A DNA stretch of 64,000 nucleotides from Aquisalimonas sp. 2447 (lineage in GTDB: Bacteria; Pseudomonadota; Gammaproteobacteria; Nitrococcales; Aquisalimonadaceae): positions 124,001 to 188,000 of the forward strand of contig NZ_CP050695.1 in NCBI RefSeq assembly GCF_012044895.1, given 5' to 3'. The position numbers and the translations under genes were made by a program. Positions 2,452-49,273 of the stretch are shown in pieces; the stretch's first letter is position 1; each line of letters begins with the position of its first letter. Below the pieces are notes generated by a model, which saw nothing but the letters and a program-made list of their open reading frames with translations, was not told where the DNA came from and did not search any database.

Positions 2452-4245
2452 ATGCGTATGATTTCAACCCGCCAGGCCGCTTTGGCGACCGCCTGTCTGA
2501 TTCCGTTGGCGACAGCCGCCGACGACGAACCCACGCTCCAGCTCAACCCACTGGTGGTGACGCCGACACTGTCCACCCAGACGGTGGATGAGAGTCTCAG
2601 CTCCGTGACCGTCATCGACCGCGAGACCCTGGATCAGCAGCAGCCGCGCGAATTGTCGGATGTGCTTCGCGGGCAACCAGGTATCGATATCTCGACCACG
2701 GGCTCCTTCGGCAAGGGCACCAGCATCTACACGCGCGGCACCGGCGCGGAGTCCACCGTGCTACTCATCGACGGGATCCGCATCCGATCTGCGACAAATG
2801 GCAATCCGCCATGGCAGTTCATCCCGCCGCAACTGGTGGATCAGATCGAAGTCGTGAGAGGGCCGCGAGCGAGTCTCTATGGTGCGGACGCGACTGGGGG
2901 TGTCATACAGGCGTTCACGCCCGACGGCCGGGACCGTGACACCGCCTGGATTCAGGGCGGTGCGGGTTCGTTCGGATCTCACGAATACGGTGCAGGCTTC
3001 TCCGGCAGCGCCGGAAACACGGCTTACAGCCTGGGGTTGAATCACTTCCATACCGACGGTGTCGAGGTGCGCGAAGGTGGCGATGATCGGGGTTTCCGGA
3101 ACACCTCTGGCTTGGCTCGCCTGTCTCACCGGTTCGACGGTGGTATCGAACTCGGTTTGACGGGTTTTCGGGCGCATGGGCGGACGGCCTTCGATGGCGG
3201 TAGAACGGATTTCGTCAAGCAGGCCGCCGGAACGGAGCTCACTGTGCCGGTTTCGCCAGTCTGGCTGACGTCGGTTCAGTTCAGTGAGGCTCGCGACGAA
3301 GAAGAGCAGGTGGACGACGACTCTGTATTTGACACGCGCACGCGTACCGCGCGCATAGAGAACCACCATGCGGCCGGGCCGCACGACGTGGTTTTTGGTG
3401 CGGAGTTCGTACGCGATGAAGTGGACGGATCCACCGACTACGACGAAGACGGGCGTGATAATCGAGCGGTATTCGGCCAAACCGTTTTCGTGCTGGACGA
3501 TGCCGATCTTCAGTTGAGCCTTCGCTGGGACGACAATGAGGCGTTCGGTGATCGGGCAACCGGCGCCGCCGCCATTGGCGTCCGGCTGGACAACGCCCAC
3601 CGCGTACGCTTGAGTTACGGCACTGCGTTTCGGGCGCCGACGTTCAATGATCTTTATTTCCCCGGCTTCGGCAATCCCGATCTGTCTCCGGAACGTTCCC
3701 AGACCGCCGAACTCGGTTTTCGAGGCCAGTACCGGACGGGCTACTGGGACGTCGCCCTCTTCGAAACCCATGTGGATGATCTGATCCAGTTCGATGCAGC
3801 CACGTTTTCCCCGCAGAACGTGGCTCGGGCCAGGATTCAGGGTTTAGAGGTGGCCGCCGGCCGCCGGCTAGGAAGCGTAGAAATCAATGCTGCCGCGACC
3901 CTTATGGACCCGCGGGACCGGGAGACCGGCAATCGCCTCGCCCGGCGGGCGAGGCAGAGCGCGCGCCTAGACGTCGACCGGCAAATGGGCGCGGTATCAC
4001 TGGGGGTCACCGGCCTGGTACAGGGTGACAGGTACAACGCCGCTGAGAACGAAGAACGTCTTTCGGGTTTCGGCTTGGTGAACCTGCGCGCCGGCTGGAA
4101 ATTCGCCCGTAACTGGTCGGCGCGGCTGACCGTCGATAATGTGCTGGACAAGGATTACGTCACGGCGCGAAACAGTTCCGACGAGTTTGATTACAAGAAC
4201 GCCGGCCGCAGCGCCTTCCTGAGCGTCCGTTACGGGAATCGTTGA
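2452..4245 (+). CDS. btuB: TonB-dependent vitamin B12 receptor BtuB
   Basis: This outer-membrane beta-barrel imports cobalamin or related corrinoids. The 597-residue protein has a short signal peptide ending near ATAADDE. A TonB-box-like stretch (NPLVVTPT) is followed by the plug domain (VTVIDRETLDQQQPRELSDV, then VLLIDGIRIR, IEVVRGPRASLYGADATGG). The C-terminal barrel includes RLSYGTAFRAPTFNDLYFPG and ends in a TonB-receptor-like strand. AAGGGG lies 6-8 nt before ATG 2452, just downstream of a cobalamin riboswitch. The stop overlaps the next start, so it is translationally coupled to the CobN-family gene. B12 is the likely substrate, but other cobalt-containing ligands are possible given that neighbour. 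Confidence 0.9.
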   Translation: MRMISTRQAALATACLIPLATAADDEPTLQLNPLVVTPTLSTQTVDESLSSVTVIDRETLDQQQPRELSDVLRGQPGIDISTTGSFGKGTSIYTRGTGAESTVLLIDGIRIRSATNGNPPWQFIPPQLVDQIEVVRGPRASLYGADATGGVIQAFTPDGRDRDTAWIQGGAGSFGSHEYGAGFSGSAGNTAYSLGLNHFHTDGVEVREGGDDRGFRNTSGLARLSHRFDGGIELGLTGFRAHGRTAFDGGRTDFVKQAAGTELTVPVSPVWLTSVQFSEARDEEEQVDDDSVFDTRTRTARIENHHAAGPHDVVFGAEFVRDEVDGSTDYDEDGRDNRAVFGQTVFVLDDADLQLSLRWDDNEAFGDRATGAAAIGVRLDNAHRVRLSYGTAFRAPTFNDLYFPGFGNPDLSPERSQTAELGFRGQYRTGYWDVALFETHVDDLIQFDAATFSPQNVARARIQGLEVAAGRRLGSVEINAAATLMDPRDRETGNRLARRARQSARLDVDRQMGAVSLGVTGLVQGDRYNAAENEERLSGFGLVNLRAGWKFARNWSARLTVDNVLDKDYVTARNSSDEFDYKNAGRSAFLSVRYGNR

Positions 4246-7200
4246 TGTTGCGCCTGATGGCATTCTGCCTGTTGTTGATGCCCGCCTTCGCCTCCGCGGC
4301 GACGGTGGTTGGCATCGTCTCCGAGCGCTCCGCCGCCGAAATGGCGGCCGGGGCGCACGAGTTCCTGGATGCCCATCCGGACCACGAGGTGGTGCTGCGC
4401 ACGCCGGAGCAGCTTGCCGGCAAGTCCGACAGCGAAGTTGCGGCCCTGTGGCAGGACGCCGACGCGGTGCTCCTGGCGGCGGTGTTCGGCGACCAGGTGG
4501 GGCGGCTGGAGCGGCTGATGCGGCAGCAGCCGCCGGCGGGCGAGACGCCGATTCTGGCCATCAACAGTGACCGTCGGATCACCCGGCTCTCGCGGCTGGG
4601 CGGCGAACGGGTGCTGGACGGGCTCTCCGATGACGATCTCACCGAGCTTACCCTCAACCCGGACCCCGGCGAGGATGCCCGCGAACACCTGGCCCAACGG
4701 CAGGAGCGCTTCGCGGACCAGGCCGACTGGCTGACGGGGCGTGCCTTCTACCAGGGCCGCAGTCCGGAACACATCGACGGCCTGTTCCGCTGGCTGCTGG
4801 CGGAGGCGGGAGAGTCCATGGACGTCCCGGAGCCCCGGCCGCGTGACACCATCCGCTACTACCGCCACGGCACCGCCAGCCCGGATGCGGACGCCATGGA
4901 GCTGGACGACGGCCCCGCCGTTGCCCTGCTGGATACCGACTACGGCGACCGTCCCGGTGATCGGGACCTGCTGGATGCCGCCTGCGCCGCGCTGGAAGAG
5001 CGTGGCATCCAGTGTTTCGCCGTACTGGCCCGCTGGGGCGGTGCCAGTGTCGAGGCGGTGGAAACCCTGGCCGAGCGGGCAGCGCCGGCGGATCTGGCGG
5101 GGGTCGTGAGCCTGCAGTACTTCACCGTGGGCGGCGGCGAGGGCCGTCGCGACGCCACCGCCGCACTCACCGAACTGGACGTGCCCGTGATCAAGGGCAT
5201 CCGCCTGAGCGGTCTCACCGAACCGGAGTGGCTGCTGTCCGAAGACGGCATCCCCTGGGATTCGGTGCACTACCAACTGGCCATGCCGGAGCTGCAGGGC
5301 ATCAGCCAGCCCATGGTGCTGGCCGTCTCCCGGCCCACGGAAGTGGACGAGCGCACCGGCCTGGAGCTGAGCCTGACCCGCCCGGTGGACGAGCGTGTCA
5401 CCGCCCTGGCGCACCGGCTGCAGCGCTGGAGCGCGCTGCAGACCACCGACAACGCCGACAAGCGCGTGGCTCTGGTCTACTACAACCACCCGCCGGGCCG
5501 CCACAACGTGGGCGCCGACAAGCTCGATGTCCCGGAATCCCTGTTCGAGATGCTCCAGCAGCTGCAGGCGGCGGGCTACGACACCGGCGAGCTGCCCGAG
5601 AGTGCCGAGGCCCTGCACGACAAGATCCAGGACCGCGGCATCAATCTGCCGGACAACCGCGCCGGCCTGGACGATCTGCTCGGCCGGGTGCCGTCCCTGT
5701 CCCGGGAGGAGTATCGAGCCTACTTCGACACCCTGCCCGAGGCCGTCCAGGCGGAACTGGAGCATGGCCCGGTGGGCTACCTCCACGCCCGGCTCATGGA
5801 CGCCAAGGATCAGGAACACCGGGCCCTGGCCGAGAGCCTGCTGGAGCGCAGTGTCGGGGATCTGCGGCACATGCTTCGCAACCATGAGCACGCTTCCCAG
5901 CAGCGGGCGCTGGACCTGCTGCGGCAGTACGAGCAGCAATGGCAGGCCCTGCTTGATCAGGGCGGCGATACCGAGGACGTGACCAAGTTGCGCGATGCCC
6001 TGATCCGCACCGGCATTCCCGGGTTGTCCGGCTGGGGCGATGCGCCCGGTGAGGCCATGGTGCGCGATGGCGAAATGGTTTTCCCCGGTGTGCGCTTCGG
6101 CAACGTCTTCATCGGCCCGCAGCCGCCGCGGGGCTGGGAAGTGAGCGAATCCCTGCTGCATGCCAACACCACTTTTCCGCCCACCCACCAGTACGTGGGC
6201 TTCTACCACTGGATGCGTGACCACTTCGAGGCGGATGCGCTGGTGTACGTGGGCCGCCACTCCACTCGGGAATTCCTGCCGCGGCGGCGCGCGGGGCTGG
6301 CCGGTGACGACTACCCCGAGATCCTCGGCGGCGACCTGCCCGTGATCTACCCCTACATCGTCGACGGCGTGGGCGAGGGCATCCAGGCCAAGCGCCGCGC
6401 CATGGGCGTGATGATCAGCCACCTGACGCCGGCCCTGGAGACCACGGAGCTCTACGACGATCTGCTGGAACTGCGGCAGCTGGTGGAGACCTTCGAATCT
6501 GCCACGGACCCGGATTCGCCGACGCGTGCCCGTGCGGTGGAGACCCTGCGGGAACGTATCGAGGCCCTGGACCTCACCGAGGAGATCGAGCACGAACTCG
6601 AGCACGGCCATGACCACGATCACGGTGATGGCAACGGCCACGGTGACGACGACGATCACGGCAGCGAGTCGGCCCACGACGAGCATGGGCGTGACGAAGC
6701 GGACCATGCAGGACACGAAGAGAGCCACGACGACCCTGATCACGCCGATGAGCATCACGACGATGACCACGGCAGCCGCAGTCTCGATGACGTGGACGAG
6801 GAACTGCTCGTGCACGAGGTGGGCCACTACGTGACCCACATGCAGGAACAGTTCATGCCCATCGGCCTGCACGTCTTCGGCCGTGACTGGGACGACGACG
6901 CGGTGGACATGATGATCGCGTCCATGGCCGGGGACGACGAGCCCGAGGAGGGCTGGCGGGAGGATCTGGCGAACTCACCGGGTAACGAAATGGCGAACTT
7001 CCTGGCCGCCCTGGAGGGCCGTTTCGTCGAGCCCGGTCGTGGCAACGATCCGGTGCGCACCCCCGCCGTGCTGCCCACGGGCCGGAACTTCCACGCCCTC
7101 TCCGGCGACCTGGTGCCCACACGGGTGGCCTGGTCCCTGGGTCAGGAGATGGCGGCGGATGCCCGCGACCGCGGCGATCCCGAGGCCGAGGGCAGCGAGG

Positions 7201-8714
7201 CCATCGTCCTCTGGGCGTCGGATACGGTGCGCGACGAGGGCGTGATGGTCGCCTTCGGCCTGGACATGCTGGGGGTGCGGCCGAAGTGGAACTCCCGCGG
7301 CATCGTCGAGGGGCTGGAGCGCATGCCGCTGGAGGAGCGCTCCCGTCGGCGGGACGCCCTGTTGACCACCTCCGGCCTGTTCCGGGACCTCTACGAGGAC
7401 CAGCTGGTGTGGCTGGATCAGGCCGTTCGCGTCGCCCTGGACGGGGCCTCGGAGACCATTCGCGCGGAGCACCCGCAGCTCGACGGCGCCCTGGACGAGG
7501 CCCTGCGGCCGTTGCCGGACGCGCTGCGCGACCCCGGTGACGAGCCCCTGGAGCGCAACGATGTCGCCGCCCGCTGGGTGGCGGACACCCGGGAGATGCT
7601 GGGCAACGGTGCAGACCCACGGCAGGCCGGCCGCGACGCGGCGCTGCGCGTCTTCGGCACGGCACCCGGGTCCTACGGTGCCGGCGTCAACCGCCTGGCG
7701 GAGCGCTCCGGCGCCTGGGAGGACCGCGCGGAGCTGGCGGACGCCTACCTGCGCCGCATGGGCCACGCCTACGGCAAGGACGCCAGTGGCGAGCCGTCCC
7801 ACGCCGCGTTCGAGAGCCGGCTGCAATCCGTGGGGCGCACCTACCTGGGCCGTGCCAGCCACGTCTACGGTCTGCTGGACAACGACGACGGCTTCGATTT
7901 CCAGGGCGGGCTGTCCCTGGCGGTGGAGACCCTCACCGGCGACGCCCCGGACAACCGCGTGCTCATGCACGCCGACGTGGACAACCCGCGCGTGGAGTCT
8001 CTGCACCGCGCCCTGCTGGGAGAGTTGCGCCGGCAGAACCTGAATCCGCAGTGGCTGGAACCGCTCATGAACCACGGCTACGCCGGCGCCCGCACCATGG
8101 GCGCGGACTTCATGGACAACCTCTGGGGCTGGCAGGTGACCAACCCCGAGGTGGTGCGCTCCTGGGTGTGGGATGCGGTGAACGATGTCTATTTCCAGGA
8201 CAGCCACGGCATCGGCCTGGACGACTTCCTGGAGGAAGACCACAACATCCACGTGAAGATGCACATGCAGGCCATCACCCTGGTGGCGGCGCACCGGGAG
8301 TTCTGGGATGCCGATGAGGAGGTGTTGGACGAATTGATCCAGGACTTCGCCGAATCGGTGGTGGAGCACGGCTTGCCCGGCGGCGGCCACACCCGCCCCG
8401 ACCATCCGACCATGGACTGGGTGGCGGACCAGCTCGCCGACGCGGAGCTGGCGCAGGCGTTCGATGGCGTCCGTGCCGCCGCCCAGATGGACCAGGTGGA
8501 GCACGCCATGGATCCGGCGACGGTGGCGGAGATCAGCATTACGGATGAGCTGGCCGAGGCGGCGGACGACGCGGCCGAGGAACAGCAGGAACAGACCGAG
8601 GATGAGGCCGGTGACGATGCCATGGAGGGAGGGTTCGTCCTGTTACCGTGGCTGGTTGTCGGTGCGGCCTTCCTGCTGCTTGCCGGTGGTGTTTATGCGG
8701 GGCGCAGATTTTGA
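4245..8714 (+). CDS. cobN: CobN-family chelatase large subunit, exported and membrane-anchored form
   Basis: The product belongs to the CobN/BchH/ChlH superfamily. Canonical CobN is a cytoplasmic subunit that inserts cobalt into hydrogenobyrinic acid diamide together with CobS and CobT. This protein differs. It is 1489 residues (classical CobN is roughly 1250) and begins with a clear signal peptide (MLRLMAFCLLLMPAFASA). An insert at about residues 780-850 is extremely rich in His, Asp and Glu. It ends with one hydrophobic helix (VLLPWLVVGAAFLLLAGGVY) and a basic GRRF tail. CobN-type blocks are recognisable (ALVYYNHPPGRHNVGAD; GRHSTREFLPRR; MGADFMDNLWGWQVTNP). ATG 4245 overlaps the btuB stop by 1 nt; an in-frame TTG at 4242 is less likely. 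The topology predicts a periplasmic, inner-membrane-tethered enzyme or metal-handling protein. No cobS or cobT is in the window. Confidence 0.9.
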   Translation: MLRLMAFCLLLMPAFASAATVVGIVSERSAAEMAAGAHEFLDAHPDHEVVLRTPEQLAGKSDSEVAALWQDADAVLLAAVFGDQVGRLERLMRQQPPAGETPILAINSDRRITRLSRLGGERVLDGLSDDDLTELTLNPDPGEDAREHLAQRQERFADQADWLTGRAFYQGRSPEHIDGLFRWLLAEAGESMDVPEPRPRDTIRYYRHGTASPDADAMELDDGPAVALLDTDYGDRPGDRDLLDAACAALEERGIQCFAVLARWGGASVEAVETLAERAAPADLAGVVSLQYFTVGGGEGRRDATAALTELDVPVIKGIRLSGLTEPEWLLSEDGIPWDSVHYQLAMPELQGISQPMVLAVSRPTEVDERTGLELSLTRPVDERVTALAHRLQRWSALQTTDNADKRVALVYYNHPPGRHNVGADKLDVPESLFEMLQQLQAAGYDTGELPESAEALHDKIQDRGINLPDNRAGLDDLLGRVPSLSREEYRAYFDTLPEAVQAELEHGPVGYLHARLMDAKDQEHRALAESLLERSVGDLRHMLRNHEHASQQRALDLLRQYEQQWQALLDQGGDTEDVTKLRDALIRTGIPGLSGWGDAPGEAMVRDGEMVFPGVRFGNVFIGPQPPRGWEVSESLLHANTTFPPTHQYVGFYHWMRDHFEADALVYVGRHSTREFLPRRRAGLAGDDYPEILGGDLPVIYPYIVDGVGEGIQAKRRAMGVMISHLTPALETTELYDDLLELRQLVETFESATDPDSPTRARAVETLRERIEALDLTEEIEHELEHGHDHDHGDGNGHGDDDDHGSESAHDEHGRDEADHAGHEESHDDPDHADEHHDDDHGSRSLDDVDEELLVHEVGHYVTHMQEQFMPIGLHVFGRDWDDDAVDMMIASMAGDDEPEEGWREDLANSPGNEMANFLAALEGRFVEPGRGNDPVRTPAVLPTGRNFHALSGDLVPTRVAWSLGQEMAADARDRGDPEAEGSEAIVLWASDTVRDEGVMVAFGLDMLGVRPKWNSRGIVEGLERMPLEERSRRRDALLTTSGLFRDLYEDQLVWLDQAVRVALDGASETIRAEHPQLDGALDEALRPLPDALRDPGDEPLERNDVAARWVADTREMLGNGADPRQAGRDAALRVFGTAPGSYGAGVNRLAERSGAWEDRAELADAYLRRMGHAYGKDASGEPSHAAFESRLQSVGRTYLGRASHVYGLLDNDDGFDFQGGLSLAVETLTGDAPDNRVLMHADVDNPRVESLHRALLGELRRQNLNPQWLEPLMNHGYAGARTMGADFMDNLWGWQVTNPEVVRSWVWDAVNDVYFQDSHGIGLDDFLEEDHNIHVKMHMQAITLVAAHREFWDADEEVLDELIQDFAESVVEHGLPGGGHTRPDHPTMDWVADQLADAELAQAFDGVRAAAQMDQVEHAMDPATVAEISITDELAEAADDAAEEQQEQTEDEAGDDAMEGGFVLLPWLVVGAAFLLLAGGVYAGRRF

Positions 8715-8815
8715 CGCTGCTGCCCGCCAGGCTGGGATATAGCGCTGTGCTTCTTGGAAGGGTCGGCCGACCGCGAGGCGACACGCTTTCAAATTGCATA
8801 ACAACGAGGTGAACC

Positions 8816-9259
8816 ATGTTCACATCGGCAACACTGGAAATCATGGATGCCCTGGTCGGCTGGCTGCTGGAGCCGGTGATCGTGGCGCTGCTGGCGTTGG
8901 TGGCCCTGGCCCTGTGGGAGCTGGGGCTTGCGCTGGGTGAACGTACCGGCGGGTTGCGGCGCCTGGAGGCCACGGGTGACGCCAATGCCGTGGCGCGCCG
9001 CGCGCAGCGCCGGATCGATCGCGCCGATCTGCTGGCCCGGGTCGGGCCCATGCTTGGCCTCATGGGCACGCTGATCCCCCTCGGGCCGGGGCTCGCCGCC
9101 CTGGGGCGGGGTGAGCTGGACGTGCTGGCGCAGGCGGTGACCGTGGCCTTCAACACCACCGTGCTGGGGCTGCTCATCGGTATCCTCGGCTTCCTGGTAG
9201 GGCGCCTGCGCCGCCGCTGGTACGACGCCGTGATGGAGCGGCTGGAGAGCCCGGCATGA
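8816..9259 (+). CDS. MotA/TolQ/ExbB-family proton-channel-like protein
   Basis: This 147-residue membrane protein has a hydrophobic N-terminal helix, a basic cytoplasmic stretch and two further helices. The family signature RVGPMLGLMGTLIPLGPGL is followed by VAFNTTVLGLLIGILGFLVG. Members form proton-driven motors with an ExbD/TolR/MotB-like partner; the overlapping downstream gene is the obvious candidate. GAGGTG precedes ATG 8816. The gap after the CobN gene is about 100 nt, the largest inside this run. Its placement after an exported CobN and TonB receptor suggests it energises that system and is not a flagellar or Tol component. The specific role is inferred. Confidence 0.85.
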   Translation: MFTSATLEIMDALVGWLLEPVIVALLALVALALWELGLALGERTGGLRRLEATGDANAVARRAQRRIDRADLLARVGPMLGLMGTLIPLGPGLAALGRGELDVLAQAVTVAFNTTVLGLLIGILGFLVGRLRRRWYDAVMERLESPA

Positions 9260-9555
9260 GCGTGCCTTCGTATCGCCGCAGCCGTTTCGACACCGGCGAT
9301 GAAGACCCCATGGGGCCGCTGGCCAACCTGGCGGATATCATGCTGGTGTTCGCCGTGGGGCTGATGGTCGCGCTGGCTGCGTCGAGCCAGGGGCTCGAGC
9401 AGGCCAGCGAAGGCGGCATGGATGTGGAGGCCGGCGAAGAGCTCCCCGAGGTGCCGGCCGGTGCCGGCGAGGCCGGCAGTGGGTACGAGGCCGTGGGCCA
9501 GGTCTATCGCGATCCGGAAACGGGCCGCATGGTCCTCATCGGAGGTGATGAATGA
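9256..9555 (+). CDS. DUF2149-like single-span protein (ExbD/TolR-like partner)
   Basis: This 99-residue protein has one predicted membrane helix, PLANLADIMLVFAVGLMVAL. An aspartate sits at the start of the helix, as in ExbD/TolR proton-pathway helices. A short acidic periplasmic tail follows. It overlaps the MotA/ExbB-like gene by 4 nt (ATGA) and the btuF start by 4 nt. The architecture matches small DUF2149 proteins found beside MotA/TolQ/ExbB and CobN-type genes. It lacks a long ExbD periplasmic domain, so how it would contact a receptor or the chelatase is unknown. Confidence 0.75.
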   Translation: MSVPSYRRSRFDTGDEDPMGPLANLADIMLVFAVGLMVALAASSQGLEQASEGGMDVEAGEELPEVPAGAGEAGSGYEAVGQVYRDPETGRMVLIGGDE

Positions 9556-10469
9556 ACGCAGGTATCCACGGTCCCCGGGTTCGCCGTCCATGGGGTAGCA
9601 GTGCGCTGGTCCTGCTGGGCGCGCTGTCCTCCGGTATCGCCGTCGCCGACGGCCCGTGCGTGGTGGACGACGCGGATCGCGAGGTGTGTCTGGACGCCCC
9701 GGCCGAGCGCATCGTCTCCCTCTCCCCCGGCGCCACCGAGCTGGTGTTTGCCGCCGGCGGCGGTGAGCGCATCGTCGGTACCGTCAGCTACAGCGACTAC
9801 CCCCCCGAGGCGGAGGACATTCCGCGCATCGGCAGCTACAAGCGCCTGGACATGGAAGCGCTGCTGGAGCGTGAGCCCGACCTGGTGGTGGGCTGGTCCA
9901 GTGGCAATCCCACCGAGCAGCTGGAGCGGCTGCAGGATCTGGGGCTCACTGTCTACCTTTCCGAGCCCCGGGAGCTGGATCACGTGGCCACCACCGTCGA
10001 GCGGCTGGGTCGGCTCACCGGTAGTGCATCCACCGCCGACCGGGTTGCGGCGGCGTACCGGGATGAACTCGCCGCCATCGAGGAGCAGTACGGCAACGCC
10101 GACCCGGTGCGGGTGTTCTACCAGGTCTGGCCCGACCCGCTGATGACCGTCAACGACGACCATCTGATCAGCCAGGCGGCGGCGCTGTGTGGTGGCGAGA
10201 ACGTGTTCGGCGAGCTTGGCAGTCTCACTCCGCGTATCGACAAGGAATCCGTACTGGACCGTAACCCCGAGGCCATCGTTGCCGGTGGCATGGGGGAGGC
10301 CGACGAGACCTGGCTGGACGACTGGCGCGGTTTCCAAAGCCTGGAAGCCGTGACCCAGGGGAATCTGTTCTTCGTGCCGCCGTCCAGTATCCAGCGCCCG
10401 ACGCCGCGACTGGTGGAAGGCACGCGCACCCTCTGCGCGCACCTGGAGAAGGCCCGTGAGCGCCGCTGA
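9552..10469 (+). CDS. btuF: Periplasmic cobalamin-binding protein BtuF
   Basis: This is the class III ABC substrate-binding protein that delivers B12 to BtuCD. The 305-residue product has a twin-Arg-containing N-terminus and a hydrophobic signal segment (SALVLLGALSSGIAVADG). The BtuF/FecB fold follows: AERIVSLSPGATELVFAAGG, IGSYKRLDMEALLEREPDLV, and TPRLVEGTRTLCAHL near the end. The ribosome site GGAGGTGATGA is strong and overlaps the preceding stop. The 3' end overlaps btuC by 14 nt. It shares the upstream cobalamin riboswitch unless an internal promoter exists. Confidence 0.92.
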   Translation: MNAGIHGPRVRRPWGSSALVLLGALSSGIAVADGPCVVDDADREVCLDAPAERIVSLSPGATELVFAAGGGERIVGTVSYSDYPPEAEDIPRIGSYKRLDMEALLEREPDLVVGWSSGNPTEQLERLQDLGLTVYLSEPRELDHVATTVERLGRLTGSASTADRVAAAYRDELAAIEEQYGNADPVRVFYQVWPDPLMTVNDDHLISQAAALCGGENVFGELGSLTPRIDKESVLDRNPEAIVAGGMGEADETWLDDWRGFQSLEAVTQGNLFFVPPSSIQRPTPRLVEGTRTLCAHLEKARERR

Positions 10470-11478
10470 TGGCGGCGTTTCACCGGCCACCGCGGCGCCC
10501 GCCGTGGCCGTGGGCCGGCTGCTGCCGCCCCTGCTGATCCTGCTGTGCCTGGGGGTGGCCTCGGTGATGGTGGCGGTGGCCGTGGGCAGCGTGCCCATCC
10601 CGCTGCCGGAGCTGTGGGCGGTGTTCACCGGCGAGGGCTCCGCGCTGCACCGCACCCTGGTGCTGGAGCTGCGCGCCCCCCGGGCCCTGGCCGCGTTCGC
10701 CGTGGGCGGGCTGCTGGCGGTGGCCGGGGCCCTGATGCAGGTGCTGCTGCGCAACCCGCTGGCGGACCCCTACGTGCTTGGCCTCTCCGGCGGCGCGGCA
10801 GTGGGTGCCCTGGCCGCCATGCTCCTGGGACTGGGTGCGGCCATCGTCTCCGGCGCGGCGTTCGCGGGTGCCCTGCTGTCCACCGTGCTGGTGTTCGGCA
10901 TCGCCCACGGCACCGGGAGCTGGACGCCCACACGGCTGTTGCTCACCGGTGTGGTGGTGGCCGCCGGCTGGGGCGCCGTAATCACCTTCATGCTGGCGGT
11001 GGGCCCCACCGAGCGCCTGCCGGGCATGCTCTACTGGTTGATGGGCGACCTCACCTACGCCCGGACGCCCTGGATCGCCCTGTCCACGGTCGCGGTGGCC
11101 TGCATGCTGGCGATGCCGCTGGGGCGCAGTCTCAACGTTCTGGCCCGCGGGCCCATGCAGGCCGCAGCCCTCGGGGTGCCCGTACGCGCGCTGGAGTGGT
11201 CCATCTACATCGGCGCCAGCCTGATCACCGCCGTGGCCGTGACCACCGCCGGCAGCATCGGCTTTGTCGGCCTGGTGGTGCCACACATGCTGCGCCTGGT
11301 GCTGGGCAACGACCAGCGGTTGATCCTGCCCGCCGCCGCCCTGGCCGGCGGCATCCTCGTGACCCTGGCGGACACCCTGGCGCGCACCATGATCGCGCCG
11401 GAGCAGCTGCCGGTGGGCGTGATCACCGCACTCCTGGGTGTCCCCACATTCCTGTACCTGCTGTACCGGAGTCGCTGA
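10456..11478 (+). CDS. btuC: Cobalamin ABC transporter permease BtuC
   Basis: This is a FecCD-type inner-membrane permease of 340 residues with about ten hydrophobic helices. Family blocks include LRAPRALAAFAVGGLLAVAG, RNPLADPYVLGLSGGAAVGA and a late GSIGFVGLVVPHMLRLVLG. The start is GTG 10456, preceded by GGAGAAGG inside the end of btuF. Its stop overlaps the btuD ATG by one base (TGATG). It forms the transmembrane channel of BtuCD-F. The family also carries siderophores and haem, but the flanking corrinoid genes favour B12. Confidence 0.92.
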   Translation: MSAADGGVSPATAAPAVAVGRLLPPLLILLCLGVASVMVAVAVGSVPIPLPELWAVFTGEGSALHRTLVLELRAPRALAAFAVGGLLAVAGALMQVLLRNPLADPYVLGLSGGAAVGALAAMLLGLGAAIVSGAAFAGALLSTVLVFGIAHGTGSWTPTRLLLTGVVVAAGWGAVITFMLAVGPTERLPGMLYWLMGDLTYARTPWIALSTVAVACMLAMPLGRSLNVLARGPMQAAALGVPVRALEWSIYIGASLITAVAVTTAGSIGFVGLVVPHMLRLVLGNDQRLILPAAALAGGILVTLADTLARTMIAPEQLPVGVITALLGVPTFLYLLYRSR

Positions 11479-12299
11479 TGAGTAGCGTTCTCGCTGCGGA
11501 CAAGTTGATCATCGACATCCCGGGCCGGCCGGACGGCGTGCCCCTTGATCTCGCCGTGGAACCGGGGCAGGTGTGGGGGGTGCTGGGTCCCAACGGCGCC
11601 GGCAAGACCACCTTGTTGCACACCCTTGCCGGCCTGCGCCCGCCGCGTAGCGGCCGGGTGACCCTGGACGGCCGACCGCTGCGCAGCTATCGGCGCAAAC
11701 ACGTGGCGCGCTCGGTGGGTGTGGTGTTTCAGGAACGCCAGGACGGTTTCCCCGCCACCGTACTCGAGACCGTGCTCATTGGCCGTCACCCCTATCTCGC
11801 GGCCTGGGACATGGAAACCGCCGAGGACGTTGCCATCGCCCGGGCGGCACTCGCCCGCATGGAACTGGACGGCCTGGACGAGCGCCTGGTCAGCACCCTC
11901 TCCGGTGGTGAGCGCCAGCGGGTGGCCATCGCCACCGCCCTGGCCCAGGACCCGGACGTCTGGCTCGCCGACGAGCCCACCAATCATCTGGATCTGCGCC
12001 ACCAGGTGGCGGTGATGGAACTGCTGCGCGCCCAGGCCGTGGCCGAGCGCGGCATCTTCCTGTGCCTGCACGACATCAACCTGGCGGCGCGCTGGTGCGA
12101 TCATCTGCTGCTGCTCTACCCTGACGGCGCCGCATGCTGGGGGCCGGCGGAGCACATGCTGGTGCCGGAGGCCCTGGAGCGCCTGTACGGCCAGCCCCTG
12201 GCCCGGGCCACCGTGGATGGCGCCCAGGTGTTCGTCCCCGCCGGGGCAGGCACCATCCAGCCGGCGCGCCCGGAATCCCATGCAAGGAGACCATCGTGA
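11478..12299 (+). CDS. btuD: Cobalamin ABC transporter ATP-binding protein BtuD
   Basis: This 273-residue ATPase powers BtuC. It has Walker A (GPNGAGKTTL), a Q-loop (VVFQERQDGFPATVLETVL), the ABC signature LSGGERQRVAIATALAQ, Walker B (VWLADEPTNHLDL) and the H-loop (LCLHDINLAARWCDHLLLLY). The start ATG 11478 follows the btuC stop by overlap. The stop overlaps the GTG start of cobB. The gene order joins uptake genes directly to late corrin-ring synthesis genes, so salvage and synthesis are probably co-regulated. Confidence 0.92.
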   Translation: MSSVLAADKLIIDIPGRPDGVPLDLAVEPGQVWGVLGPNGAGKTTLLHTLAGLRPPRSGRVTLDGRPLRSYRRKHVARSVGVVFQERQDGFPATVLETVLIGRHPYLAAWDMETAEDVAIARAALARMELDGLDERLVSTLSGGERQRVAIATALAQDPDVWLADEPTNHLDLRHQVAVMELLRAQAVAERGIFLCLHDINLAARWCDHLLLLYPDGAACWGPAEHMLVPEALERLYGQPLARATVDGAQVFVPAGAGTIQPARPESHARRPS

Positions 12300-13630
12300 C
12301 CGACGAATCCCCTGTCCGCGGGCGCGCGCCCGCGGCACTGATCAGCGCCCCGGGCTCCGGTTCCGGCAAGTCCATGATCACCGCCGCCCTGGCGCGGCTG
12401 CACCGCAATGCCGGCCGCCACGTGCGCGTGTTCAAGTACGGTCCGGACTACCTGGACCCCATGGTGCTGGAGCGCGCCTCGGGCAATCCCGTCTACCAGC
12501 TTCACCCGTGGATGACCGGCATGGCCGAGTGCCGCTGGCGGCTGGCCGAGGCCGTCCGGGACGCGGATCTGGTGCTGGTGGAGGGGTCCATGGGTCTGTT
12601 CGACGGTGATCCGTCCAGCGCGGACCTGGCCGCGGCCACGGGGCTGCCGGTGGTGCCGGTGATCGAGGCGGCGGGCATGGGGCAGACCTTCGGCGCCGTG
12701 GCGCTGGGGCTGGACCTGTACCGGGACAATGTTCATCTCTCCGGGGTGATCGCCAACCGCACCGGCAGCGTCGGCCACGGCCGCATGCTGGCGGAGGCGC
12801 TACCCGAGCGCATGCCGTTACTGGGGGCGGTACAGCGCAACGAGGCCCTGCATATCCCCGATCGGCACCTGGGGCTGGTGCAGGCCGGCGAGGTGGCCGA
12901 TCTGGATCTGCAGCTGGACGCGGCGGCCGAGGTGCTCCGGGAAGCGGGGCTGGAGGCATTGCCGGCCACCGTGGAGCTGGTGGCGGATCCGCTGCCGCTA
13001 CCGCCACGGTTGCTGGAGGGGGTCCGGATCGCCATTGCCCGGGACAGCGCCTTCGCCTTCATCTACCGCGCCAACGTGGAGCTGCTCGCCGCCATGGGCG
13101 CGGAGCTGGTGGAGTTCTCGCCGCTGGCCGATCAGGCGCTGCCGGAGTGCGACGCCCTGTGGCTGCCCGGCGGTTACCCGGAACTCCACGCTCGCCAGTT
13201 CGCGGACAACCTGCCCATGCTGCTGGCCATGCGTGCCCACCACGCCGAGGGGAAGCCCATCCTGGCGGAGTGCGGCGGGCTCATGGCCTGCATGGAGGCG
13301 CTGGTGGACGGCGACGGGCACGCGCACCGCATGCTGGGCCTGCTGCCCGGGCGGGCGGTCATGGCCGGCAAGCTCACCGGCCTCGGGCTGCAGTCCCTGG
13401 CCACGCCCCATGGCGAGCTGCGCGGCCACACCTTCCACCACTCGCGGCTGGAGACCGAGCTGGAGCCCGTTGCCCGCACGGTGCGCAACCGCACCGGCAC
13501 CGCCGGCGAGGCGGTCTACCGGCAGGGATCGCTCACCGCCAGCTACTACCATGCCTATTTCCCGTCCGCGCCGGCGGCGGCCGCCGCCCTGTTCCGCGGC
13601 ACGTTTTTCGAGGAGACCGACCATGCGTGA
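12296..13630 (+). CDS. cobB: Cobyrinate/hydrogenobyrinate a,c-diamide synthase CobB/CbiA
   Basis: The enzyme amidates the a and c side chains of the corrin ring using glutamine and ATP. It has 444 residues. The N-terminal P-loop is SAPGSGSGKSMITAAL, followed by FKYGPDYLDP and VEGSMGLFDG. The C-terminal class I glutamine-amidotransferase half contains LWLPGGYPELHA and the nucleophile motif LAECGGLMACMEAL. The GTG start at 12296 is supported by AAGGAG eight bases upstream and by overlap with the btuD stop. The 3' end overlaps cobO by 8 nt. Whether the substrate is cobyrinate or hydrogenobyrinate depends on when cobalt is inserted, which the window does not settle. Confidence 0.92.
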   Translation: MTDESPVRGRAPAALISAPGSGSGKSMITAALARLHRNAGRHVRVFKYGPDYLDPMVLERASGNPVYQLHPWMTGMAECRWRLAEAVRDADLVLVEGSMGLFDGDPSSADLAAATGLPVVPVIEAAGMGQTFGAVALGLDLYRDNVHLSGVIANRTGSVGHGRMLAEALPERMPLLGAVQRNEALHIPDRHLGLVQAGEVADLDLQLDAAAEVLREAGLEALPATVELVADPLPLPPRLLEGVRIAIARDSAFAFIYRANVELLAAMGAELVEFSPLADQALPECDALWLPGGYPELHARQFADNLPMLLAMRAHHAEGKPILAECGGLMACMEALVDGDGHAHRMLGLLPGRAVMAGKLTGLGLQSLATPHGELRGHTFHHSRLETELEPVARTVRNRTGTAGEAVYRQGSLTASYYHAYFPSAPAAAAALFRGTFFEETDHA

Positions 13631-14234
13631 AAACGCCAAGGACCCGGAACGCCATGCCGCACGCATGGCGAAGAAGAAGCGCGCCATCGACGAGCGCATC
13701 GCCCGCGCCCAGGAGGACAAGGGCGTACTGGTGGTGCTGACGGGCCCCGGCAAGGGCAAGAGCAGTTCCGGATTCGGCATGGTCGCCCGCGCCCTGGGCC
13801 ACGGCATGAAAGTGGGTATCGTGCAGTTCATCAAGGGTGCGTTCGTGACCGGCGAGGACCGCTTCTTCCGGGACCATCCGAGCGTCACCTACCACGTCAT
13901 GGGCGAGGGTTACACCTGGGATACCCAGGACCGCACCCGGGACGAGGAGGCGGCCGGCGCGGCGTGGGAGCAAGTTGCCGCCATGCTGAAGGACCCGTCC
14001 TATCACCTGGTGCTGCTGGACGAACTCAACATCGCCCTGCGCTACGAGTATCTCGATCTCGACCGGGTGCTGGACGACCTCATGGCCCGCCCGGACATGC
14101 AGCACGTGGTCGTCACCGGCCGCAACGCCAAGCAGGAACTCATCGACATCGCCGATACCGTTACCGAGATGCAGGTGGTGAAGCACGCCTTCAAGGACGG
14201 GGGCGTGCGCGCTCAAAAGGGCGTGGAACTCTAG
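13623..14234 (+). CDS. cobO: Cob(I)yrinic acid a,c-diamide adenosyltransferase CobO/BtuR
   Basis: The enzyme transfers the adenosyl group of ATP to the cobalt of corrinoids. This 203-residue protein has the CobA/CobO P-loop [17 protein letters not shown], then [11 protein letters not shown], a Walker-B-like [17 protein letters not shown], and the C-terminal family block [20 protein letters not shown]. It overlaps cobB and is followed after 14 nt by cobQ. The order diamide synthase, adenosyltransferase, cobyric acid synthase matches the order of the reactions. Confidence 0.93.
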
Positions 14235-14248
14235 GCGACGACACCACC

Positions 14249-15715
14249 ATGACCACGCTGATGATCCAGGGCACCACCTCCGACGCCGGCAAGAGCACGG
14301 TGGTGGCCGCCCTGTGCCGCTGGCTCAGGCATCGGGGGGTGTCCGTGGCCCCGTTCAAGCCCCAGAACATGGCACTGAACAGCGCCGTCACCAGCGACGG
14401 CGGCGAAATCGGCCGCTCCACCGCGCTGCAGGCCCAGGCCTGCGGGATCGCCCCCCACAGCGACATGAACCCCGTGCTCCTCAAGCCCCAGAGCGACCGC
14501 GGTGCCCAGGTGATCCTGCGCGGGCAGGTCTACGGCAACATGGACGCGGTGGACTACCACGCCTTCAAGGCCAGCGCCCGGGAGGCGGTGCACTCCGCCT
14601 GGCAGGCGCTGGTCGCCCGTTACGACGTGATCATCGCCGAGGGTGCCGGCAGCCCGGCGGAGATCAACCTGCGGGAGAATGACATCGCCAACATGGGCTT
14701 CGCCGAGATGGTGGACTGCCCCGTGCTGCTGGTGGGTGATATCGACCGTGGCGGGGTGTTCGCGCAACTGGTGGGGACCCTGGAGCTTGTCTCCGCCGCG
14801 GAGCGGGAACGCGTCCGGGGGTTCCTGATCAACCGTTTCCGCGGTGACCCCGCACTGCTGGACAGCGGCCTGGAGTGGCTCACGGAGCGCACCGGCACGC
14901 CCGTACTTGGCGTGCTGCCCCACCTCCAGGGCCTAGTGCTGGACGCCGAGGACAGCATCGGCCGCACCGGCCGCGAGGCGGGCACCGATGCCCTGCGGGT
15001 GGTGGTGCCCGCCCTGCCGCGCATGAGCAACCACAACGACTTCGATCCGTTGCGGCTGCACCCGCAGGTGGACTTGACGTTCGTGGGCCCCGATCAACCG
15101 CAACCGCCGGCGGATCTGATCATCCTCCCCGGCAGCAAGAGCACCCGCACGGATCTCGCCTGGCTGCGGCAGCAGGGCTGGGAACAGTCCATTCGCCGCC
15201 ATGTGCGCTACGGCGGGCACGTGTTCGGCATTTGCGGTGGTTTTCAGATGCTCGGCCACAGCGTTGCCGATCCCGAGGGGCTGGAAGGCCCGGCTGGCAC
15301 CACGCCCGGGCTGGGGTTGCTGGACGTGGAGACGCGGCTCATCCCCGGAAAACAGCTGCGCCAGGTCACTGGCCATCTTGAGCCGGAAGGCGCGGCGCTC
15401 CGCGGCTACGAGATCCACAATGGCGTCACCGAGGGCGCAGCCCTGGAACGGCCGCTGGTACGGCTCGGCGACCGGCCGGATGGTGCCAGCAGCGATGACG
15501 GCCAGGTCATGGGCTGCTACGTCCACGGCCTGTTCGACCACCCCGACGCCGCCAATGCCTTGCTCGCCCGGGCCGGGCTCGACCACCAGGGTGCGGTGGA
15601 CTACCACGCTCACCGGGAGGCGGAGCTGGACCGCTTGGGAGGGATGGTGGCCGAGCACATGGACACGGGGCGTCTACGGGCGATGCTCGGGCTGATGGAC
15701 GCCCGTGTGGAGTGA
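14249..15715 (+). CDS. cobQ: Cobyric acid synthase CobQ/CbiP
   Basis: The enzyme amidates the b, d, e and g side chains of adenosylcobyrinic acid a,c-diamide with glutamine and ATP. The 488-residue product starts with the dethiobiotin-synthetase-like P-loop [20 protein letters not shown] and [13 protein letters not shown]. It has [19 protein letters not shown] mid-protein. The C-terminal glutaminase half contains the nucleophile motif [18 protein letters not shown] 14249 lies 14 nt after cobO. It is the last gene of the run; no canonical terminator follows, only palindromic repeats. Confidence 0.94.
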
Positions 15716-15735: not shown

Positions 15736-15757
15736 GTAGGGCGCATCTTGATGCACC
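15736..15757. repeat. REP-like palindrome, family A
   Basis: This copy of the GTAGGG(T/C)GCATCTTGATG family lies 20 nt after the cobQ stop. One base change breaks the palindrome (GCGCATC versus GATGCAC). Confidence 0.7.
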
Positions 15758-15844: not shown

Positions 15845-16444
15845 GAGCGCCAGGCGAAGCCTGGTCGCTTGGGATTGGTGGCATGGAGGCGGCCATGAAA
15901 TTGCGAGAGGGACCCAGCGGGCCGTTGAGCCCGCCCGGTAGAGGTTGGCCACCAGCCGGAAGCGAGTCTTGCGCTGCAGTGGGTAACTGCTGTGGTGAAG
16001 CGTAGACAGCGAGTGTCCAGGCTGCGTGATTGAGCCCCGAAATCCGCGACATTGTGGGTGCCGACGGTGTCTGAAGACCGGAAGGCAGTAACGCTGCACT
16101 GTAGAGGCCTGGTGTGGTGTGCCCGCCGGGGTCCGAGAGCGGGGCATGGGCACATTGGGGTCCCCCAGGAACCTGGGAGGGCCTGTCGTCTCCGCCTAAG
16201 AAGTAGACGGTGCGGGCGACCGCTGATCCGCAGTCCGGGCCAGTGGTGGGAGCGTCCTCCTGCTGCTGGAGCGAAGGCTGAGGGCGCTGCGGCGGTATGG
16301 TGCTGCGAGGACAGCCAGAGCGGTGCCAGACGGGCGGCAGGCAGTCGGAGTCTCCCATAGTACCGGAGCAGCCGGGGAACGCGCCCCAGCGGACCCGGTG
16401 AAGGGGAAGGGGAGACCGTGTGAGTGGAGCTGTTGGAGGGACCG

Positions 16445-17747
16445 ATGGCGGAGGCATTGGACTCTGATCTCATCTCAACGCGATGCCAACAGATAGCGGA
16501 TCTGGCGCGGCGTCTTCCGGACAGGCCGCTTTTGACGTTGGCCCATCACATTGACGAGGCGTGGTTGCGTGAGGCGTATCGACGCACGCGCAAGGACGGG
16601 GCGCCGGGCGTTGATGGCCGCACGGGTGCCGCCTACGGCGAGGAGCTTGAGGCGAACCTGAGCTCGCTGCTGGAGCGGGCGAAGTCCGGGCGTACCGGGC
16701 GCCGCCGGTGCGGGGCACCTCGATCCCCAAGGGTGACGGGAGCGAGCGCCGAGCGCTCGGCATTCCGACGTTTGAGGACAAGGTGCTCCAGCGGGCGGTG
16801 GCGATGGTGCTGGAGGCGGTCTACGAGCCGGAGTTCCACGAGGGCTCGTACGGCTTCCGCCTGGGACGCTCGGCGCACCAGGCGCTGCAGGCGGTCTGGC
16901 GGCCGTTGATGGCGATGGGCGGTGGCTGGGTGATTGATCTTGACGTGCGCAAGTTCTTTGACCGGGTCGACCATGGTCTGTTGCGGGAGGTGCTGCGTCG
17001 GCGGGTACGTGACGGCGTGCTGGTTCGGTTGATCGGCAAATGGTTGAACGCCGGCGTGCTGGAGGAAGGGCAGTGGCGCCAGCCCGGGCGGGGCACCCCG
17101 CAGGGCGGGGTGATCTCGCCGATGCTCGCCAACATTTTCCTCCACGAGGTGCTGGATACGTGGTTCGAGGACAGTGTCCGGCCCCGGTTGCGCGGTGAGG
17201 CGCACCTGGTGCGTTTTGCCGACGATGCGCTGCTGGTGTTCGCCTGCGAGAGCGATGCCCGGCGGGTGATGGAGGTGCTGCCCAAGCGTTTTGCGCGCTA
17301 CGGGCTGGAACTCCACCCGGAGAAGACCCGGGTTGTGCGGTTCGACCGGCCCGGATCGGGCGGAGGACCGCACCCGGAGACCTTCGATTTTCTCGGCTTC
17401 ACCCACTACTGGGGGCGGTCGAGGCGAGGGCGCTGGTGGTCAAGCGCAAGACGGCGCGGGATCGGCTGCGCCGGGCCATGCATGCAATCGATCGTTGGTG
17501 CTGTGTGATGCGGCATCACCCCGTGGTTGAGCAGTGGCAAGCCCTGAACCGCAGACTCCGGGGCCACTACGCCTACTTCGGCGTGCGTGGTAACTTTGCA
17601 GCGATCGACCAGGTCCGCTCCCAGGCGATGCGCTCCTGGCACCGATGGCTGTCGCGGCGCTCGCAGAAGGCGGCGATCCCGTGGTCGGAGTTCTCCCGGT
17701 TCCTGGAGTGTTACCCGCTCGCCCGGGCCAGGATCTGCGCCACGTAG
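16445..17747 (+). pseudogene. ltrA: Group II intron reverse transcriptase/maturase, two frameshifts
   Basis: The intron-encoded protein is split over three reading frames. Frame one (from ATG 16445, after GGAGGG) covers the N-terminus, including [13 protein letters not shown] one-base loss near 16690 moves to a frame with [62 protein letters not shown] and the catalytic [11 protein letters not shown] second one-base loss near 17430 leads to the thumb/maturase segment from [18 protein letters not shown] to the stop at 17747. No endonuclease domain is visible after domain X. Catalytic motifs survive, so inactivation looks recent, or the frameshifts could be sequencing errors. Confidence 0.88.
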
Positions 17748-38220: not shown

Positions 38221-38307
38221 TAGGGTGCATCTTGATGTACCTTCTCGCGATATGCTGCCCGAGGCGGCATGCCGGAGGCCGTTTGCGGTGCATCAAGATG
38301 CACCCTG
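38220..38307. repeat. REP family A inverted doublet
   Basis: GTAGGGTGCATCTTGATG at 38220 and the opposed GGTGCATCAAGATGCACC at 38287 flank a 45-nt spacer. It directly abuts the family C doublet. Confidence 0.75.
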
Positions 38308-48735: not shown

Positions 48736-48870
48736 GCTGGCGCCTCTCTCGTTGCAGAACCAACGTGTGTGACCGACCCGACCCGTGATCATCGCATGCC
48801 GCCGTCCCTTTTCGCAGGTTTCTGGATCGCTTGATTCGGCATCTCGCACCCGGTAGGTTCACCGCTTGCT

Positions 48871-49077
48871 CTCGGGTGCCTTCAGGCCGTTCCGGCCGGA
48901 AAGGTGAAACGGGAACCCGGTGAGGCAGGAGCCAATAGCTGCTGCCGAGTCCGGGACTGCCCCCGCAACGGTGAGCGTGTTGCAGCGGACCATCCCCGCC
49001 ACTGTGGCTGATGCCACGGGAAGGCGGTCCGCTCGGGTGTCTTGACGCCCGCACGCGAGTCCGGAGACCGGCCCGAT
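48871..49077 (+). ncRNA. Cobalamin riboswitch upstream of second TonB receptor
   Basis: Conserved elements in order are AAGGTGAAACGGGAACCCGG, GAGTCCGGGACTGCCCCCGC followed by AACGGTGAGC, the B12 box GCCACTGTGGCTGATGCCAC followed by GGGAAGGCGG, and GAGTCCGGAGACCGGCC. A P1 stem pairs TCGGG (48872-48876) with CCCGA (49072-49076). It controls the receptor-PepSY-CPBP group. About 196 nt lie between it and the receptor start, enough for an expression platform. Confidence 0.95.
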
Positions 49078-49273
49078 GAGCCGTCCCGCATTCATGCGGG
49101 ACATCTCCTGGTGGTGCGAGGGGCACTGCTGGCGAGGACGCCGCGACTCGGTGCCTGTCGGCCATGCCGTGCAGTCCGTTCCGCCTGTCCACCACGCCCG
49201 GACAGGTCGCCTCCTCGTTCCCTGGTCCCTCGCCCGCAGGAGCTTTGATAACCAAGGGACAGGAGCAACCAGG

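Follow-up and report, generated by a model that had tools for sequence, protein, structure and literature searches.

An exported CobN homologue encoded with an ExbB–DUF2149 pair in a cobalamin operon of Aquisalimonas: a candidate proton-powered corrinoid chelatase

We analysed a 64,000-nucleotide stretch of DNA (the window; positions 124001–188000 of the one-contig 3.97 Mb genome of Aquisalimonas sp. 2447) in which a cobalamin riboswitch is followed, all on one strand, by the genes btuB–cobN–exbB–DUF2149–btuFCD–cbiA–cobO–cobQ. The subject of the present study is the cobN homologue of this operon (4245–8714, + strand), whose product carries export and membrane-anchoring signals. Our tentative explanation, to which we give slightly less than an even chance, is that this protein is an exported class I corrinoid chelatase powered by proton flow, which would be the cobaltochelatase of bacteria that make cobalamin by the late-insertion pathway and would serve corrinoid salvage in bacteria that do not make it. 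The initial annotation, made from the letters of the sequence, had described a CobN homologue with a signal-like start, a C-terminal helix, a His/Asp-rich insert and a place in a riboswitch-led operon, and this object is confirmed. It had also set a periplasmic corrinoid- or metal-handling machine against ‘a standard cobaltochelatase’. The machine part of that claim stands, as the protein is, by its signals, exported and membrane-anchored, is linked to corrinoid genes and is coupled to a proton-channel pair by gene order and co-loss. The opposition does not, because we found no other full-length class I chelatase in seven late-insertion producers, whose cobaltochelatase it may therefore be, with a different motor and in a different compartment.

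Export signals, clade and putative motor of the CobN homologue

The protein was assigned to the CobN family by a PF02514 match (whole-protein score 807.9 bits), by its place in a tree and by its fold, and it scored under the cut-off of all seven curated NCBIfam CobN models that it matched, the best giving 581.3 bits (cut-off 1619) and TIGR02257 giving 490.1 bits (cut-off 822.05). The gene begins with an ATG at 4245 that overlaps the btuB stop; its frame, taken from a TTG at 4242, gives 1490 amino acids. By hydropathy and sequence we recognized a signal-peptide-like segment (MLRLMAFCLLLMPAFASAA; 4245–4301, +), with hydrophobic residues 8–26 and an N-terminal stretch ending in ASAA, and by hydropathy a C-terminal transmembrane helix at residues 1466–1484 (8637–8693, +), directly followed by GRRF. 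Both segments had been named in the initial annotation, and under the same hydropathy rule neither a cytosolic CobN (L038) nor a BchH protein (L037) had any hydrophobic segment. A signal-like start was called in 70 of the 81 sequences longer than 1350 amino acids in the clade described below, using a home-made rule that also called one of nine cytosolic controls. If the CobN body lies outside the cytoplasm, a positive tail is expected after the C-terminal helix, and in 61 of 62 clade sequences (helix threshold 1.6) the tail after the helix was more positively charged than the flank before it. On the strength of these sequence signals, the N-terminal segment and the C-terminal anchor, it is a predicted exported CobN-like protein.

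A scan of named genomes gave 292 relatives, of which the best 80 were retained, and 40 of these, together with the window protein and four relatives, form 45 rows of an unrooted tree of 62 proteins, all on one side of a branch with a support of 100. By the exported cobN gene, the nearest relatives are metagenome-assembled genomes named Aquisalimonas, and the records of clade members name Pseudomonadota, Myxococcota, Nitrospirota, Nitrospinota and Campylobacterota. A further branch (support 99) parts the clade and eight other exported or ExbB–DUF2149-linked rows (zinc-type proteins, a Runella protein and those of T. (Geobacter) lovleyi, Azospirillum and Cupriavidus) from cytosolic CobN and BchH; five outgroup rows are on long branches and their exact placement is unsure.

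A useful comparison is HmuS of Bacteroidota, a membrane-bound CobN-like member that removes iron from heme (Nath et al. 2025, PMC12583661). Where HmuS has the motifs HFG(T/A)HG and LSLDHxxEFMGG (PMC12583661), the window protein has GRHST (residues 671–675; 6252–6266, +) and LLDNDDGFDFQGG respectively. The motif His of GRHST aligns with His-538 of HmuS, and GRHSTxEF is present in 87 of 87 clade sequences (a set that holds two contigs twice, L011/L085 and L074/L121), the other 17 alignment rows having G(T/K/A/M/R)HG. Within LLDNDD (7872–7889, +), Asp-1216 occupies the position of HmuS His-1209, at which we found Asp in 45 of 45 clade rows, three of four cytosolic CobN proteins and six of the eight other exported rows, and His in five of five BchH proteins. 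This Asp separates the clade from the porphyrin chelatases and is not proof of a corrin substrate. In addition, many positions of the CobN body are invariant across 22 diverse sequences.

The structure was predicted in two parts, with a mean predicted local distance difference test score (pLDDT) of 86.5 for a head–neck model and 73.9 for a body model. The head–neck model matched the folds of CobN 7c6o (Z 14.7), ChlH (Z up to 14.6) and HmuS (Z 13.1–13.5). For the body model, CobN 7c6o gave Z 44.8, but at 9.1 Å, and the best close match was the CobN corrin-site structure 9fpc (Z 44.5, 1.8 Å, 377 residues), ChlH fragments (Z 41.2–41.5) and HmuS (Z 35.3–35.6) scoring lower. Sequence alignments to HmuS begin at HmuS residue 283–284, and the HmuS heme site, Met-79/His-254, is in the head and neck.

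Profile matches for all neighbours bear out the placement of cobN between btuB and a pair of genes for a MotA/TolQ/ExbB-like proton-channel protein (8816–9259, +; PF01618, 40.2 bits, cut-off 22.9) and a DUF2149 protein with a conserved membrane Asp-27 (9256–9555, +; PF09919, 36.8 bits, cut-off 27.1). The ExbB-like protein has Pro-78, Gly-81, Thr-85 and Pro-88 in 63 of 63 sequences, and the membrane Asp of DUF2149 is present in 61 of 62, Runella having Glu. None of ten DUF2149 members had a Pfam ExbD match; a DUF2149 search returned TolR and ExbD peptides only at E values of 0.88 and 4.4, ranked under unrelated hits, and comparison with one ExbD gave a probability of 3.6%. The membrane Asp is thus the single feature suggestive of DUF2149 being an ExbD homologue.

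The link between enzyme and motor was most apparent in Marinobacter. In its 20 loci (two of them from one genome), the C-terminal helix was present in none and neither ExbB nor DUF2149 was encoded within 2.5 kb, and a signal-like start was called by the home-made rule in 19 (all but L101). In the 60 other loci the helix was found in 59 and both motor genes in 54. The helix threshold was a 19-residue hydropathy mean of 1.1: Marinobacter homologues gave 0.0–1.04 and the others at least 1.17, with the exception of L124 (0.86), in which the gene is split into two frames. Six of these 60 loci do not have both motor genes. The sequence of L089 and of L135 stops shortly downstream of cobN. For L085 the next 1.2 kb encode no motor protein, but in the same genome a second contig (L039) carries the last part of cobN and, after it, the two motor genes. 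In L133 and L140 the gene listing shows an ExbB gene that falls outside the distance rule, and L152 has DUF2149 with no ExbB in either listing. As the Marinobacter rows form one nested group in the tree, helix and motor were lost together a single time, which points to the C-terminal helix as the point at which motor and enzyme are coupled. CobH was found in none of 12 Marinobacter genomes and in eight of 32 others (Fisher P = 0.08), a difference that we do not use as evidence. Many of the helix-less homologues (L096, L097, L100 and L106 among them) end in a Cys-bearing tail, for example DDCQN...SC.

We also considered whether ExbB–DUF2149 is a plain energiser of TonB, which is unlikely since the T. 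lovleyi locus (L166, on pSZ77) holds a separate TonB–ExbB–ExbD set beside ExbB–DUF2149. The CobN of this plasmid has been described as lying beside cobalamin genes, with no CobS or CobT and with its role left open (PMC3403914). Like the window, this locus has cobN with ExbB–DUF2149 beside cobalamin genes, but its CobN belongs to another branch of the tree, and it has the extra TonB–ExbB–ExbD and DUF2162 genes.

Exported CobN and the His-rich insert in late-insertion producers

Seven of the genomes with exported CobN in which CobH was found have this protein as the only full-length class I chelatase that we detected, namely the host of the window, Halospina, Vreelandella utahensis, Halovibrio and three Thioalkalivibrio (the six besides the host being G054, G055, G056, G061, G063 and G076). 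By similarity to the host's genes, the synthesis clusters of all seven encode CobG, CobH, CobJ, CobL, CobM, CobI, CbiD and an ABC-2 type transporter pair; CobG exceeded the curated cut-off of 234.8 bits in the three genomes tested (286.9 in the host, 271.9 in Halovibrio and 267.2 in V. utahensis). The host's cluster also encodes CobK (320.2 bits, cut-off 231), with CobM at 299.3 bits, and a protein like the C-terminus of CbiG (CobE-like) that is under every cut-off. Taken with the cbiA, cobO, cobQ, cbiB and cobC genes of the window, the late pathway predicted for the host is complete but for the chelatase, uroporphyrinogen methylation being outside this check. In the three Thioalkalivibrio genomes (L177–L179) the exported cobN is in the same gene run as the synthesis cluster. 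An eighth late-insertion producer with exported CobN, G003, is outside the table given below, because the contig stops within its cobN.

No CobT was found anywhere in the host's genome, where CobS was not searched separately, and the best match to the ChlID-type model TIGR02442 was 28.1 bits, from what we judge by sequence to be a MoxR-like ATPase (L083). The initial annotation had held that work with cytoplasmic CobS and CobT as the sole cobaltochelatase would speak against its reading, and the genome gives no sign of this. The same synthesis cluster occurs in the congener G001, whose genome also encodes a cytosolic CobN, CobW (447.2 bits) and a ChlID-like AAA+ partner (451.4 bits, itself under the model cut-off) and in which no exported CobN was found. 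It looks as if one chelatase set has been replaced by the other. A search for a second CobN in the host's genome, proposed in the initial annotation, did find one: a CobN–ExbB–DUF2149 locus (L007 8510–12610, about C1:961.5–965.6 kb) beside ZigA (660.5 bits) and DksA-like genes. Its CobN has no head domain and a signal-like start in another frame, and looks truncated.

The ABC-2 pair of the host's cbiD–cobG cluster (L034 12518–14481) has both of its genes in the corresponding cluster of all eight late-insertion producers with exported CobN, i.e. the seven and G003. We keep it as a possible part of the system and not as evidence.

The His/Asp-rich insert of about 70 residues noted in the initial annotation is at residues 785–854 (6594–6803, +), as judged by His counts and by a pLDDT below 50 over most of it. 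It has 16 His in a 70-residue window, as against a mean of 7.5 and a maximum of 14 in 2000 shuffles, and so is beyond chance. Residues 202–255 of the body model are below a pLDDT of 50 and the insert is thus predicted to be disordered; it falls between the motifs, at the place where the HmuS chain is far longer and carries a Met-rich insertion. Over the 87 sequences the His counts in this stretch are bimodal, with 13–41 in 12 and 1–4 in 75, which rules out the insert as a general part of the machine. It does, however, track the late-insertion producers, being present in all seven. In a table of 49 rows for which CobH status was established, seven have both a His-rich insert and CobH, one has the insert without CobH (G057), two have CobH without the insert (G031 and G090) and 39 have neither (Fisher P = 3e-6, for rows that are not independent, since those that are His-rich form one clade of the tree; Arhodomonas aquaeolei is counted twice, as G030 and G077, in the last cell). 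The two CobH producers without the insert have other means of metal insertion: G031 has an early-insertion CbiX (185.7 bits) and a full CbiG, and G090 has a cytosolic CobN with CobW and AAA/VWA partners. A His/Asp-rich region has been described in CobW (PMC7689651), which the His-rich chelatase loop recalls.

Proposed mechanism and competing explanations

In the mechanism that we propose, the CobN body would be periplasmic, with its C-terminal helix docked on a proton-driven ExbB–DUF2149 motor that would stand in place of the ATP-driven CobST/ChlID motor, and would act between BtuB in the outer membrane and BtuFCD in the inner membrane. A periplasmic corrin would bind the CobN body. In producers the disordered His/Asp-rich loop would capture periplasmic cobalt, replacing CobW, and the cobalt would then be inserted, proton flow through ExbB–DUF2149 driving a conformational change that is otherwise driven with ATP by CobST; the BtuFCD-like importer would bring the cobalt–corrin into the cytoplasm. 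In non-producers, where the His-rich loop is nearly always absent, exported CobN would serve salvage of imported corrinoids. Compared with cytosolic CobN–CobS–CobT with CobW, the window protein shares the fold and, if the proposal is right, the place in the late-insertion pathway, but it has a signal and a membrane helix, both lacking in the cytosolic system, whose partners are ATP-driven. The most specific form of the proposal is that producers of the Aquisalimonas–Halospina–Thioalkalivibrio type export metal-free corrin (perhaps through the ABC-2 pair), metallate it in the periplasm with a proton-powered His-rich CobN and re-import it by a BtuFCD-type system, CobST and CobW having been replaced; this we consider possible but doubtful.

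The ATP need of class I chelatases is described as not fully understood (PMC7689651), and an ExbB-type motor apparently replacing the AAA+ motor, together with a lineage without motor and helix, would open this question to genetics. Periplasmic cobalt insertion, if true, would be an exception to the cytoplasmic view of B12 synthesis, and proteins annotated as ‘cobaltochelatase subunit CobN’, one of them from Marinobacter sp. M3C, would need re-examination; most holders examined seem to make no corrin ring.

A number of observations weigh against this proposal, which has two weakest links. One is the distribution of the protein. CobH was found in eight of 44 genomes, the host included, and 36 of the 44 are without it; most holders are non-producers, in which cobalt insertion meets no obvious need. 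The host's order has the exported CobN type in ten of 54 genomes (one of the ten, G004, only 82% complete), with CobH in three of the ten. A role in de novo synthesis only is therefore ruled out, CobH being missing in seven of ten holders in the order and in most of the wider set, and the exported CobN machine must serve bacteria that do not make the ring. The exported type is the sole CobN in 37 of the 43 genomes to which the named loci led. The frequencies of cbiA, cobQ and cbiB (39, 33 and 37 of 80 loci) suggest that salvage might concern early or incomplete corrinoids. The other weakest link, in producers, is the route of the substrate, as periplasmic insertion would require metal-free corrin to leave the cytoplasm; the ABC-2 pair is ruled out as a marker of exported CobN, being also present in G001 with its cytosolic CobN. 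The chelatase activity of the clade is itself a prediction from sequence, fold and gene content. Several further points have the same direction. The genome-wide absence of CobT and ChlID concerns the host's genome only, which also encodes a divergent CbiX-like protein (43.8 bits), and so another chelatase is possible. The early-insertion pathway, too, uses CbiD, an enzyme that these clusters encode. The Asp at the HmuS His-1209 position is weakened as a corrin marker, the other exported rows that share it including three zinc-type proteins. For the C-terminal half the sequence score is slightly higher for HmuS (167.9 bits) than for 9fpc (162.9 bits), so that the preference for CobN comes from the fold and from nothing else. 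The His-rich rows form one clade, with G057, without CobH, among them, and the link with producers may thus be one event; likewise, the Marinobacter co-loss of helix and motor genes is one event only.

The same distribution favours a serious, if on balance unlikely, rival, in which CobN is a corrinoid relay or transport helper with no chelatase chemistry that passes corrinoid from BtuB to BtuF, with ExbB–DUF2149 driving release or energising BtuB. Such a relay would fit the scarcity of CobH, the gene order of the window and of several Halomonas-type and Marinobacter loci, in which btuB and btuF flank cobN and any motor genes, and the retention of the protein without the motor in Marinobacter. 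However, cobN comes instead after cbiA in L103, L106, L108 and L109, and the universal motif His (HmuS His-538) and the many invariant body positions would be unexplained; a non-catalytic protein would also leave the seven late-insertion producers without a cobaltochelatase, and the separate TonB–ExbB–ExbD set of T. lovleyi indicates that, in this organism, the ExbB–DUF2149 pair is more than an energiser of TonB.

A distinctly less probable alternative is that the protein works in the direction of HmuS, stripping imported metallo-tetrapyrroles of their metal in the periplasm, or ridding corrinoids of wrong metals. Corrins hold cobalt very tightly, which weighs against it. The resemblance is nevertheless considerable: HmuS and the clade share the class I chelatase fold, an export signal, membrane anchors and ExbB/DUF2149 partners, and HmuS and the window protein have in common a TonB receptor in the operon and an unordered domain IV insert, Met-rich in HmuS. 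In the tree the clade is placed with the other exported CobN proteins and is separated from cytosolic CobN and from BchH, and HmuS gives the top sequence score for the C-terminal half. HmuS, with its anchors and motor genes, does remove heme iron (PMC12583661), and the HmuU and HmuV of the hmu operon are annotated elsewhere as MotA/TolQ/ExbB and DUF2149 (PMC10434189). In contrast with HmuS, the window has a cobalamin riboswitch, a BtuB-like receptor and B12 genes in the operon; its clade has Asp for the defining His-1209, GRHS for HFG(T/A)HG, and a His/Asp-rich insert or none in place of the Met-rich one.

Improbable, we consider, is a cobalt-ion acquisition system under the control of B12 status, resembling the Zur-regulated PA1922–PA1925 of Pseudomonas aeruginosa, in which a TonB receptor, a CobN-like protein, a putative ExbD homologue and a hypothetical protein are induced together in a zinc-uptake mutant (PMC4542158). 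The producers' His/Asp-rich insert and the CobN–ExbB–DUF2149 content shared with zinc-type loci would agree with it, and the host has in L007 a CobN–ExbB–DUF2149 locus of zinc-type context, likened to PA1922–PA1925 here by published description. But zinc regulation sets PA1922–PA1925 apart, L007-like proteins fall outside the clade, the majority of holders, not being B12 producers, would have little use for cobalt, the receptor is BtuB-like, many neighbours handle corrinoids, and 75 of 87 sequences lack the insert. Last, a non-functional signal and an ordinary cytosolic cobaltochelatase with other AAA+ partners would also supply the seven producers with their enzyme, but is very improbable given the signal-like starts (70 of 81, by the home-made rule with its one control in nine), the positive tails (61 of 62) and, in the host, the missing CobT and weak ChlID match.

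CbiK-P of Desulfovibrio, a periplasmic class II cobaltochelatase, is like the proposed corrinoid chelatase in being exported, but belongs to an unrelated class and has no motor. Export of a CobN-like protein is by itself not new, given HmuS and the BtuS family, whose members BtuS1 and BtuS2 of Bacteroides fragilis are credited to Rodionov et al. 2003 in a study of heme iron in which porphyrin release from heme persisted in the double mutant (Rocha et al., PMC6460266); the BtuS-type traits that we examined in the window protein were its export signals (hydropathy) and its tree placement with exported CobN proteins. None of the open-licence papers found, by title and start of abstract, describes the clade as a periplasmic cobaltochelatase, and three findings are new as far as our searches reach: the B12 clade, the joint loss of helix and motor, and late-insertion producers in which CobNST–CobW appears to have been replaced. 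In Runella slithyformis (L167 4168–9156) we observed ExbB–DUF2149–CobN and a TonB receptor between hypF and hypCDE, which suggests that the machine also has a version linked to nickel.

The operon and other features of the window

The cobalamin riboswitch (RF00174) predicted in the initial annotation is upstream of btuB at 2081–2322 (+; 85.7 bits, gathering score 31.5). Of the 19 clade loci that were scanned and have upstream sequence, 18 gave such a riboswitch, the sole miss in Rfam being L160; this count left out L075 and other loci whose contig starts in or just before cobN. In the zinc-type branch it was found in none of three loci (L007, L036 and L080). The overlap of genes reported earlier holds for btuB/cobN, exbB/DUF2149 and DUF2149/btuF and fails for cobN and exbB, which are 101 bases apart.

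The first gene of the operon encodes a btuB-like TonB-dependent receptor (2452–4245, +; PF00593, 166.7 bits; PF07715, 99 bits; TIGR01779, 466.8 bits, under its cut-off of 599.7). Downstream of the motor genes are those for a btuF-like substrate-binding protein (9552–10469, +; PF01497, 96.5 bits; BtuF model NF002894, 163.5 bits, under its cut-off of 234), a btuC-like permease (10456–11478, +; PF01032, 279.9 bits) and a btuD-like ABC ATPase (11478–12299, +), whose top NCBIfam matches are uptake ABC ATPases, all under cut-off (corrinoid model NF007082, 178.5 bits, cut-off 537; BtuD model, 109.8 bits, cut-off 281). These are followed by cbiA/cobB a,c-diamide synthase (12299–13630, +; NF002204, 413.1 bits, cut-off 254), cobO adenosyltransferase (13623–14234, +; NF004637, 274.8 bits, cut-off 185) and cobQ cobyric acid synthase (14249–15715, +; NF001989, 657 bits, cut-off 273). 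Upstream of the riboswitch are cbiB (40–1038, +; TIGR00380, 216 bits, cut-off 165.9) and a threonine-phosphate decarboxylase gene (cobC/cobD; 1011–2018, +; TIGR01140, 331.1 bits, cut-off 290.55).

The cob operon has on either side of it an 18-base palindrome around GGTGCATCAAGATGCACC, which occurs in the window at 2019–2036, 15740–15757, 38224–38241 and 38287–38304, i.e. eight strand matches at four places against 0.08 expected; the host's locus L034 has it at 5122, 8599, 8757, 8913 and 18388. Its exact 14-base core was not found in the host's L007, in L082 or in the relatives' loci L035, L038, L173, L174 and L181. Directly after the cob operon is a group II intron RNA (15926–16141, 153.1 bits; region 15926–17508, +), beside which a reading frame at 16708–17508 is, judged by sequence, reverse-transcriptase-like. 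Finally, the region 48858–52848 (+) holds a second cobalamin riboswitch (95.5 bits) ahead of genes for a TonB-dependent receptor and a PepSY-TM protein, and is possibly a second B12-controlled uptake system.

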